From the NCBI GenBank assembly GCA_901538445.1, contig LR594584.1, positions 3,319,586 through 3,383,585 of the forward strand: DNA of 64,000 bases. The letters are read 5' to 3'. The notes beneath the pieces were generated by a model, which saw only the letters and a list, made by a program, of their open reading frames with translations, did no database searches and was not told the DNA's origin. The first letter of the stretch is position 1. Every line of letters starts with the position of its first letter. The position numbers and the translations under genes were made by a program. This document shows, piece after piece, positions 8,254 to 53,211 of this stretch. Source of the DNA: Gemmataceae bacterium (GTDB lineage Bacteria > Planctomycetota > Planctomycetia > Gemmatales > Gemmataceae).

Positions 8254-8987
8254 CTGCGATCCCGACCCCAACCGCGCGCTCCGCTTACGCGGTCATCTTT
8301 TTCGTTCTGGCGTGTGCTTGTGGGGTCTGCGCCGGGGCCGCGGCCGGAAACGGGAACTGGCTGGGGATCGCCCCTGGTTGGATGGCGGTCGCGTTTCTGT
8401 CCCTCGCGGCCGCGTACGCGGGTGTCGGCCCGCGAGTATTCGGGAAGCGCGACACGGGGCGGCAGTCGCCCGTGAGCCGCGTGCTGTTCGCGCCGTATTT
8501 CATGCTGAACGCGGTCGTCTGGCAGGTCCACCGGGCGGTGAGCCGTGAGCCGGCGTTCGCCGAGGTGGTCCCGAACCTCTTCTTCGGCCGCCGCCTCACG
8601 AACCTCGAGGCCCGCACCGCAGCGGCACGGGTCGGCTGGCACGCGGTCCTCGACCTCGCCCCGGAGTTCGCCGAAGCGCCCGCGTTGCGCACCCTTCCCG
8701 GCCACCGCTCGCTCCCGGTTCTCGATGCGACCGCACCTGACCCCGACCTGCTCCGCGAGGCGGTCCGCTGGCTGGCCGTGGCCGTCGCGGCGGGTCCGAC
8801 CTACGTTCACTGCGCACTCGGTCACGGCCGCACCGGAACCGTCGTGGTCGCGTACCTGCTCGCGACCGGCGCGGCCCCATCGGTCGCGGACGGCGTGAGG
8901 CTCCTGCGCTCGCACCGCCCGGGGGTGCGACTGAGCCGCACGCAGCGCGATGCGGTCGCGACGTTCGCCGGCTCCCGGGTCACCTGA
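8250..8987 (+). CDS. Dual-specificity protein phosphatase-like membrane protein
   Basis: Cys-based phosphatase of the DSP/PTP fold. Two hydrophobic segments at the N-terminus (about 12-32 and 43-60) suggest membrane anchoring. The catalytic loop VHCALGHGRTGT matches HCx5R(S/T), with Cys188 and Arg194, and Asp residues in LPVLDATAPD are candidates for the general acid. The GTG at 8250 overlaps the upstream stop (GTGA), with AAGGAG directly before it, suggesting coupling to the TIGR03000-like gene; the next in-frame ATG would lose the first helix. It may act on phosphoproteins or phosphoinositide/lipid substrates; the fold does not decide. Confidence 0.8.
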   Translation: MTAIPTPTARSAYAVIFFVLACACGVCAGAAAGNGNWLGIAPGWMAVAFLSLAAAYAGVGPRVFGKRDTGRQSPVSRVLFAPYFMLNAVVWQVHRAVSREPAFAEVVPNLFFGRRLTNLEARTAAARVGWHAVLDLAPEFAEAPALRTLPGHRSLPVLDATAPDPDLLREAVRWLAVAVAAGPTYVHCALGHGRTGTVVVAYLLATGAAPSVADGVRLLRSHRPGVRLSRTQRDAVATFAGSRVT

Positions 8988-9573
8988 CACCCGGTCCCGC
9001 GGATCGGGTGCGTGCGGTAGCCGGCCGATGTGATACACGGGAGCCGGTGTCGCGTCCCCACTCGCACATGGCCCTCGGCGCACCCCTGACTTTTTTCGGT
9101 TCAACCAACCTCGCATTCTCCCACCACCGCGCCAAATATGGAGAGTTGGAGTTTGCCTGCCGCGATGCCTTTCTTCTGGCGACCTCAGGTTTGGTTCTGG
9201 AGAGTTGGGCTTGGTTCTGGAGAGTTTTCGTTGATTCTGAGGAGTTTGGGCTGATTCTGGAGAGTTTGCGTTGGTTCTGGAGACCCCACCCCCCACTTCC
9301 GCCAGAACCATTTCACCCCCCACCCCATTCCACACAGGCGCGACCGTCGCGCCGCGAGCACCGCTGCGGCCCGGTGCGAGCCCGGACGCGGGCAGGACAA
9401 ATCGTACAGTCGGCACGCAAGGCCTCCCATGTCCGAGCGTTTTCGGATTACCCCTTCGCGTGCCCGCCCCACGCCGGGGCGCGTGTTCTCATGCCGCGCA
9501 CAGACCACCGCGCGTCCGCCCGCGTTCGGGCTTCCCGGCCCGCTCGGCAAGGGTCGATCAACTGGGAGTTGCC
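8988..9573. other. 586-nt spacer dominated by the 20-bp-period element
   Basis: No gene supported. The stretch has locally low G+C (about 9090-9290) compared with its surroundings and holds the tandem repeat described at 9191-9310. Open frames crossing it on either strand have no start signal or family resemblance. Confidence 0.5.
9191..9310 (+). repeat. Dispersed tandem element with exact 20-bp period, copy 1
   Basis: Units begin at 9191, 9211, 9231, 9251 and 9271, of the form TTGGTTCTGGAGAGTTTGCG with a few changes. The last unit runs into an ACCCCACCCCCCACTTCC tract, then CCAGAACCA (9302-9310), which is the perfect inverse of TGGTTCTGG at 9272-9280. A near-identical copy lies in opposite orientation at 30190-30310. 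The 20-bp period is not a multiple of three, arguing against a coding repeat. Confidence 0.85.
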
Positions 9574-28968: not shown

Positions 28969-31774
<2,806 letters not shown>

Positions 31775-31891
31775 GGGCGGGCTCTCGTGGGTGTGGGCGG
31801 GAACTGAAGTGTACCGCGAGCGGTCGGGCGTGTCACGGGGCCGCCGCGGCGTACACCTAACGGGGCCGCGCCACTCAGCCAGAGGTGACCG

Positions 31892-32581
31892 ATGAAGCTC
31901 CTCGTGACCGCCGGGAACACCCAGACGCCGGTGGACGACGTGCGGTGCATCACGAACATTTTCACCGGCCGAACGGGCGGGGGCATCGCGGCCCGCGCGT
32001 TCGACCGCGGCCACGCCGTCACGCTGCTCACGTCGCACCCGGCGGTCGTGGACGCGATCCCGGCGACCCGGCCCCGCACGGACCCCGACTGGCGCGTGAA
32101 GCCGTACCGCACGTTCGACGACCTCGAAGCGCTGATGGCCGCGGAGGTGTCGGGCGGCGGGTTCGACGCGATCGTCCACGCCGCGGCGGTGAGCGACTAC
32201 CGCGTCGCCGGTGCGTTCACCTTCACCGACGGGGTATTCGAGAACGTGACGGCCGGGAAGGTGAAGAGTTCGCACCCGGAACTGTGGCTGAAGCTGACGC
32301 CGACGCCGAAGCTCGTGGACCGCGTCCGCTCTGCGTGGGGCTTCACGGGCGTGCTCGTGAAGTTCAAACTCGAAGTGGGTCTGACCGACGACGAGCTGCT
32401 CACCGTCGCCGAGGCCGCCCGCGTCCACTCGGGGGCCGATCTGATCTCGGCCAACACGCTGGAGGGGATGCACGAGTGGGCGCTGGTCGGCTCGGCCCCG
32501 CTCGGCTTCGCGCGCGTGACCCGGGCGGAACTGGCCGACCACCTCATCGACCGCATCGCGGCGCTGCGGCCCGGCGCGTGA
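31892..32581 (+). CDS. Stand-alone CoaB-like phosphopantothenoylcysteine synthetase domain protein
   Basis: 229 residues of the DNA/pantothenate metabolism flavoprotein (DFP, CoaB) fold. The start KLLVTAGNTQTPVDDVRCITN matches the TAGGTxEPIDxVRxItN motif of CoaB, followed by GRTGGGIAARAFDRGHAVTLLT, VHAAAVSDYRV and FKLEVG. CoaB ligates cysteine to 4'-phosphopantothenate using CTP. No CoaC domain is fused, and the LVANDl-type loop reads ISANTL, so it may be a paralogue rather than the main CoA enzyme. It ends 4 nt before the convergent DUF1963 gene. Confidence 0.8.
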   Translation: MKLLVTAGNTQTPVDDVRCITNIFTGRTGGGIAARAFDRGHAVTLLTSHPAVVDAIPATRPRTDPDWRVKPYRTFDDLEALMAAEVSGGGFDAIVHAAAVSDYRVAGAFTFTDGVFENVTAGKVKSSHPELWLKLTPTPKLVDRVRSAWGFTGVLVKFKLEVGLTDDELLTVAEAARVHSGADLISANTLEGMHEWALVGSAPLGFARVTRAELADHLIDRIAALRPGA

Positions 32582-53133: not shown

Positions 53134-53211
53134 GGCGAGCGGGGGACGTGAGTCCCCCGGTGTGTGAGGATCGCGCTTCACCGGGGGACTCACGTCCCCC
53201 GCTCGCCTTTT
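53134..53211 (+). terminator. 29-bp perfect inverted repeat followed by T-run
   Basis: Left arm 53134-53162 (beginning GGCGAGCGGGGGACGTGAGT) pairs perfectly with 53179-53207 around a 16-nt loop; TTTTCTT follows. It starts 8 nt after the giant redox gene. Each arm contains its own small palindrome (GGGGGAC...GTCCCCC), so the element may be both terminator and repeat. Confidence 0.8.

Follow-up and report, generated by a model that had tools for sequence, protein, structure and literature searches.

The 20-bp tandem repeats found at two places in the window, the 64,000-nucleotide stretch of planctomycete DNA analysed here, are copies of an array in which a wider, patchily distributed repeat family has been amplified locally. 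This family seems to be a hitherto undescribed group of small repeats that occurs in some planctomycetes and bursts within single species; judged by analogy, its closest known kind is that of BOX-like modular small interspersed repeats. The element is probably a non-autonomous, interspersed intergenic repeat of BOX-like type, one that would be moved in trans or hitch-hike and would fold when transcribed.

Anatomy of the element

The first-pass annotation had described five exact 20-bp repeats ending in a C-rich tract and an inverted 9-mer, with a near-identical inverted second copy. Direct reading confirmed the tract and the 9-mer, the right arm CCAGAACCA being complementary to the left arm TGGTTCTGG (Table 1). 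The second copy was likewise as described: the two align without gaps with 140 identities in 161 positions (copy 2 side 30170-30330, minus strand) and hold the same parts in the same order. The 20-bp period is indeed exact, but the units differ from one another, since their four-base middle varies (TTCTGAGGAG, for instance, is unit three of copy 1), and a count of five holds only if the last half-unit is included, there being four full 20-nt units besides a divergent first unit of 21 nt. In copy 1, TTCTG starts at 9174, at the four unit starts listed in Table 1 and at 9275, where the last one runs into the C-rich tract. TRF reported period-20 arrays at 9191-9283 (4.7 copies, score 93) and, at the second locus, at 30219-30309 (4.6 copies, score 112). 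By eye, the leader and first unit of copy 1 look like a conserved box of the relatives that begins TTTCTTCCGGNCRNGT.

Table 1. Parts of the two copies of the element in the window
Feature	Position	Strand	Basis
Copy 1, element	9170-9313	+	Compared with copy 2
Copy 1, leader TTTC (9170-9173) and divergent 21-nt first unit (9174-9194, TTCTGG at 9174)	9170-9194	+	Sequence; alignment with other copies
Copy 1, four 20-bp units starting at 9195, 9215, 9235 and 9255	9195-9274	+	TRF, direct reading
Copy 1, hairpin left arm TGGTTCTGG, reaching back into the fourth unit	9272-9280	+	Direct reading; arms covary between genomes
Copy 1, C-rich hairpin loop	9281-9301	+	Direct reading
Copy 1, right arm CCAGAACCA (9302-9310), then TTT	9302-9313	+	Sequence, comparison with copy 2
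Copy 2, element	30187-30330	-	Same part order as copy 1, other strand
Copy 2, right arm CCAGAACCA, then TTT	30187-30198	-	Sequence, comparison with copy 1
Copy 2, hairpin left arm TGGTTCTGG	30220-30228	-	Direct reading
Copy 2, four 20-bp units	30226-30305	-	TRF, direct reading
Copy 2, leader ATTC and divergent 21-nt first unit	30306-30330	-	Sequence; alignment
Copy 2, putative -10-like hexamer TACGAT (TANNNT)	30353-30358	-	TANNNT at the same offset in 45/60 box-bearing copies
Copy 2, conserved upstream box ATCCGACATCG (consensus ATCCGACATGG)	30379-30389	-	Comparison of copies

Copy 1 is preceded on the same strand by a dual-specificity-phosphatase-like gene (8382-8987, plus), and copy 2 is flanked, on its own strand, by genes for a PQQ/BamB-like repeat protein (30515-32542, minus) and an NAD-dependent epimerase (28969-29919, minus). 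A further upstream repeat, resembling GTGACCCACGGGATCCGGTGTCGCGTCCCGC, is common to both copies (9030-9060, plus; 30426-30456, minus) and is also present upstream of several others.

The same layout was found in copy after copy of the source genome: a divergent first unit, about four 20-bp units opening with TTCTGG, a last TTCTGG as left arm, the C-rich loop and the right arm. Mean column identity in a core alignment of 40 copies was 92%. The number of repeats upstream of the left arm, which takes in the divergent first repeat where it passed the tolerance of the script, was 5 in 56 of 89 copies, 4 in 20, 6 in 4 and 1-3 in 9. Each unit position tends to keep its own middle word (for instance GGGC in the first full unit), from which it follows that the copies descend from an ancestor that was already arrayed. 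The common unit carries GGAG. A CRISPR array was rejected because the stretches between arms are recurrent words common to several copies and not unique spacers.

Upstream of the array, 60 copies carry a box like ATCCGACATGG (at most three substitutions), which the other copies lack. A TANNNT hexamer starts 31 nt after the start of the box in 45 of these 60 and at 30 nt in one more, with 1.16, 1.24 and 1.10 bits of information at its T, A and last T, and 0.79, 0.39 and 0.11 bits at the three middle bases. Such an information profile is that of a -10 hexamer. The upstream part, with its box off the usual -35 distance and in copies related by descent, may be called promoter-like in the sense of resemblance only.

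Copy number, flanks and gene neighbours

The source genome (G000; the window is G000:C3:3319586-3383585) comprises 7.86 Mb in four contigs. A covariance model of the last unit and the hairpin (R1, built from 44 sequences, 42 of them from this genome) gave 97 strong copies at E <= 1.1e-8. At E <= 0.01 the total was 103, the remaining six being weak matches, five of which coincide with a subfamily of the same genome that has no extra unit (see below). Pattern matches were far more numerous than chance would give: a two-unit pattern with up to two mismatches had 302 matches against 0 for its reversed control, and a tail pattern with up to three mismatches had 86 against 0. All 40 sequences scored among the 120 candidates of a DNA search matched. 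Flanks were available for 90 of the 97 strong places, and once L076, a duplicate of L075 in the stretch that was parsed, had been removed, 89 parsed copies remained.

Shared homology often stops just outside the array and its tail. In 7,824 pairwise alignments, 3,838 left ends fell in the bins from -120 to -81 relative to the tail start and another 910 in the -180 bin, and 5,525 right ends fell in the bins from +20 to +79. Comparison of the flanks, in which two left flanks were masked and one was empty, classed 15 of the 89 copies as unrelated to any other on both sides, 16 as related on the left only, 7 on the right only and 51 on both sides. These 15 copies in unrelated surroundings mean that the element was not multiplied simply by duplication of gene blocks. 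The alternative raised at the outset, that only two copies exist and that a simple segmental duplication together with the flanking genes accounts for them, is thus ruled out by the 97 strong copies and the unrelated flanks of these 15. The initial proposal, a single non-coding element of 150-200 bp, mobile or amplified and of no recognised class, is supported by the number of copies, homology that often ends near the core, and the unrelated flanks; movement of the core by itself is putative, given the related flanks on both sides of 51 copies and one core that lies inside another repeat.

All but one of the 89 copies lie between predicted genes, called with our own simple codon-usage gene caller; the exception (L028) overlaps a predicted open frame. 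A protein-coding repeat was rejected on this ground and because 20 bp is no multiple of three. Where a gene was called on both sides (n = 84), the neighbours were convergent in 30 cases, tandem in 42 and divergent in 12. Convergent neighbours were thus in excess, at 30 of 84 gaps with the element and 15 of 123 without it (Fisher p = 1.2e-4; p about 1e-13 when weighted by length), the background gaps being drawn from the same loci and the window, that is, from short stretches around copies and not from an unbiased sample of the genome. Tandem cases split 26 to 16 by strand, which is no significant preference (p = 0.16). Of the 84 left neighbours, 56 point towards the element. Right-hand neighbours share its direction in 38 of 84 cases, which gives no clear association with gene 5' ends.

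The wider family and its paired arms

Relatives carry the same layout in other letters. Model R1 matched one of them, G005, weakly, and the copies there revealed a common layout: TCTGATATAG, TTTCTTCCGGACRRGTRAAATGG, units of the form TTCCGG-N-GG, and then TTCCGG, a loop and CCGGAACCAATGAGAA. A pattern for this layout had 90 matches in G005, 18 in G009 (of the same genus as the source genome) and 4 in G115 (of another genus), with 0 in controls, and 0 in the other 92 of the 95 family genomes. A leader-box pattern (up to two mismatches) matched 7 of 397 class genomes: G005 127 times, G009 22, G115 22, G000 11, G114 2, and G004 and G218 once each, the reversed control giving 0 in each. The single matches in G004 and in G218, which belongs to another family, could be remnants or chance, and that in G218 also contamination. 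Any match, by the two pattern searches or R1, was found in 6 of the 95 family genomes. The layout is thus present with other letters in four further genomes, with single matches in two more, and the family is patchy.

The source genome itself thus holds two subfamilies, the amplified array and a form without extra units. The latter occupies 13 places there (model R3), and a search of 392 phylum genomes with R3 under strict filters matched the source genome only, in a sample that was drawn evenly and may omit G005, G009 and G115. Versions with two and three TTCTGAGGAG units were found in G009 (L041, L043). A degenerate two-unit pattern, run against a collection of 84,980 species that possibly lacks the source genome itself, matched two stretches of one metagenome-assembled "Planctomycetaceae bacterium", identical to these two G009 loci. 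A phage origin was rejected, two exact patterns having 0 matches in a viral collection.

Unique copies of the relatives carry 0-2 extra units in G005 (n = 16), 0, 1 or 5 in G009 (n = 14) and 0 in G115 (n = 7), and the zero-unit subfamily of the source genome has none (n = 12). Spacing is mostly 20 or 21 bp, within a range of 19-21 bp; one G005 locus (L200) reads with more units at irregular spacing. With a hairpin that is otherwise conserved and a number of tandem arms that runs from none to several, the relatives form a natural series for testing how BOX-like modular repeats originate and what competing hairpin arms do to an RNA.

The arms differ between genomes. They read TGGTTCTGG and CCAGAACCA in the source genome, TGGTTCCGG and CCGGAACCA in G005, and, in single copies of G009, TGATTCCGG with CCGGAATCA and CGGTTCCAG with CTGGAACCG; in G115, TGGTTCGGG or TGGTTCAGG faces CCGGAACCA or a similar sequence, and one pair is broken. 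In zero-unit forms hand-picked from the fetched loci (n = 30, 29 distinct; set A5), 93.9% of cells pair, and 8 cells in 4 pairs are changed on both sides, against 2.1 +/- 1.2 in shuffles, 0 of 500 being as high; sliding the partner by 1-3 columns left 0 or 1 cell. A mixed set (n = 57, 55 distinct; set A4) gave 19 cells against 9.3 +/- 2.3, again with 0 of 500 shuffles as high. This set excludes L200 (wrong arm picked), L205 and L215 (no arm found by the script), L225 and L226; L208 and L219 were placed by hand to match four sister copies, and the shuffle test includes L041 and L043, which the aligner set on a neighbouring repeat. The counts exceed the number of events, because the copies are related. 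These comparisons show that the two arms change together across genomes.

The stem formed by the last unit gave no covariation in set A3 (44 rows, 42 from the source genome), with 1 cell and 314 of 500 shuffles as high; 27 of the 44 rows fail one pair, mostly with A opposite C. At least one unit nevertheless holds a perfect TGGTTCTGG in 80 of 89 copies, so a partner for the right arm usually exists even where the last unit mismatches. Wobbles in the zero-unit forms (15 G-U, 2 A-C) favour the plus strand; the bias is slight in the mixed set (20 and 14, or 16 and 12 when L041 and L043 are left out). Folding of single sequences gave no clear advantage over shuffled ones (z = -0.91 and +0.38; -1.64 to +0.73 for six short forms), and a consensus fold of 33 extended copies had 40 pairs, 3 of them with change on both sides. 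In some G115 forms (L180) the leader could pair with the right arm as well, but a stem between leader arm and right arm was rejected, its covariation being no higher than that of shuffles (253 of 500 as high). We also dropped the idea that the loop was inverted between G005 and the source genome, which had been prompted by loops that are G-rich in relatives and C-rich here, the zero-unit copies of the source genome having an intermediate loop.

These observations bear on what the element might do. As a BOX-like repeat, it would be built from a leader unit, a variable number of 20/21-bp units each opening with a copy of the left arm, and the hairpin, extra left arms arising by tandem duplication of the arm-plus-spacer unit. 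The plus strand would be transcribed either from the element's own promoter-like upstream part, in about half of the copies, or within the untranslated RNA of a neighbouring gene, and the right arm would then pair with one of the left arms, the extra ones competing for this single partner. Copies would spread by means of a trans-acting enzyme or by riding in other repeats, in a burst within a single species, and would persist chiefly downstream of genes, where they are least damaging. Transcription, its strand, competition between arms, mobility and any benefit to the host are all inferred.

A regulatory RNA role is possible. In that case the copies would be dispersed small RNA genes or switches in untranslated regions, the competing left arms acting as a graded switch or as a protein-binding array, to which the GGAG of the common unit would lend itself. 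In its favour are the constant offset of TANNNT (45 of 60 copies), the covarying arms, the G-U bias in zero-unit forms, a unit count centred on one value in the source genome (5 repeats in 56 of 89 copies) and a leader box conserved between genera. We nonetheless consider it unlikely, as right-hand neighbours (38 of 84) give no clear tie to gene 5' ends, unit number varies among relatives, and a patchy presence, in 6 of 95 family genomes, would be no less expected of parasites. Its boldest version, a genome-wide RNA control network, appears quite improbable: some 110 loci would give promoter-bearing or UTR-borne RNAs whose left arms compete for one right arm, unit number would tune a switch or protein sponge, and species would change the letters of the units while keeping their pairing.

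The strict 20-bp period in the source genome would suit a protein-binding array acting as DNA, such as an iteron-like or nucleoid site with binding sites spaced by two helical turns. That relatives often have no extra unit, or a spacing of 19-21 bp, and that the hairpin arms are kept by paired changes would be unexpected for iterons, and we regard this interpretation as very improbable.

Spread and comparison with known repeats

In G005, shared homology begins a median of 11 bp before the leader box (n = 17 copies), copies bear a short, imperfect inverted end pair (TTCTGAT / ATGAGAA), and ends in both G005 and G115 look sharp by eye. Both ends were located in 17 of the 23 listed G005 and G115 copies, and none of these 17 has a target duplication by eye; neither an empty site nor a target duplication was found for the core itself. 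In G009, copies share about 125 bp upstream (median), and the 13 zero-unit copies of the source genome (L235-L247) share about 300 bp (median). Within this latter stretch, an arm-like CCAGAACCATCC is present in the five copies read. Taken with the 51 array copies related on both sides, the upstream sharing in G009 indicates that larger units may account for some of the spread.

In one locus of the source genome, L020, the core and its flanks form a composite that interrupts a palindrome left intact in L214. By eye this composite resembles a small transposon, with inverted ends that have TCA at either side. Inverted ends of a similar kind enclose other contents, again by eye, in L036, where TCA stands at either side, and in L104, where TTA does. 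Hitch-hiking of the core is therefore likely in at least one copy. Could the core always have been a passenger, immobile itself and multiplied inside larger MITE-like or palindromic repeats? The L020 composite, the roughly 300 bp shared upstream of zero-unit copies and the 51 of 89 array copies with two related flanks argue for it, but 15 of the 89 have no related flank, homology in G005 starts close to the leader box with ends that look sharp there and in G115, and both inverted ends surround only 3 of 89 copies under a loose pattern, some of whose matches look like chance. We hold this explanation to be rather unlikely as a general one and keep to that of a BOX-like repeat moved in trans or hitch-hiking.

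Movement of the hairpin by a REP-associated tyrosine transposase (RAYT) was also considered, with the hairpin, the high copy number, the intergenic position and the excess between convergent genes in its favour. Y1 transposase genes (PF01797) were found at 22 loci in three genomes, four of them in the source genome. None of the 10 loci examined, which include these four, was bracketed by the element; a partial Y1 match (L163, G000:C3:4325406) has a copy, L030, about 1.3 kb away on one side only. RAYT mobilisation was rejected for want of any association in the loci examined, and with a consensus that has no GTAG or CGTC tag beside the hairpin, a REP/RAYT origin is highly unlikely.

According to PMC3049150, BOX elements of Streptococcus pneumoniae (boxA-(boxB)n-boxC) are modular, with a variable tandem middle, over-represented between convergent genes and predicted to form a stem-loop if transcribed, boxB being predicted to interact little with boxA and boxC. 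The planctomycete element has the same arrangement of two end modules around a variable tandem middle, this likeness being one of layout, not of homology. It is also, like BOX, small, interspersed, over-represented between convergent genes and endowed with a predicted stem-loop. Unlike BOX, its tandem unit of 20/21 bp is a copy of one hairpin arm, and it belongs to another phylum.

Other known repeats share fewer traits. MITEs are short, non-coding and of high copy number, and probably moved in trans. The planctomycete element is likewise short, non-coding, present in many copies and probably moved in trans, but no target duplication was seen; the short, imperfect end pair of G005 copies could be a candidate terminal inverted repeat. 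REP families have been reported from Planctomycetes too (PMC3733652). With REP, BIME and REPIN, our element has in common that it is a high-copy extragenic hairpin forming mosaics with other repeats; it differs in the GTAG/CGTC tag, absent beside the hairpin by eye in the consensus of 40 copies, in the lack of a RAYT association and in its tandem array of arms. The TAACTGA direct repeats of Beggiatoaceae and others, described in PMC4679880 as 169 sets of two to six in one genome with a patchy distribution, resemble it in being direct repeats that are patchily distributed; they are heptamers, most of them within several nucleotides of a putative start codon, and the abstract reports no covarying hairpin. 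Rfam gave 0 matches in the window and none at gathering score at the element; in ten loci at E <= 1, two tRNAs alone reached gathering, and miRNA-family matches to the array of L178 (E 0.04 to 0.8) were far below it. No published description of the element was found in the open-licence PMC literature, to which the search was restricted.

Several other repeats were noticed along the way. At 53134-53207 of the window, GGGGGACTCACGTCCCCCGCTCGCC occurs twice without a mismatch, in opposite orientations and with 24 bp between, forming the palindrome that is intact in L214 and interrupted in L020; its recurrence in these loci makes it look like a second dispersed repeat family of the source genome. 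The MITE-like unit of L020, L036 and L104 has inverted ends near TCCCGARTCGCGTGGATCAGTTG / CGGATCCACGCGACCCGGTA, with contents that differ by locus. A REP-like palindrome, GCCGGCCTCTGTGAGGCCGG, lies downstream of the core in L022 and L036, and sequences of the CCGGTCGGTGTGAGGCCGG type follow several copies. Finally, beside the element in G009 (L043, 1634-1850), apparent inverted repeats of a CAGCCTGAAAGGCTGTGACAACATAGCCCAGGGC motif can be seen by eye.
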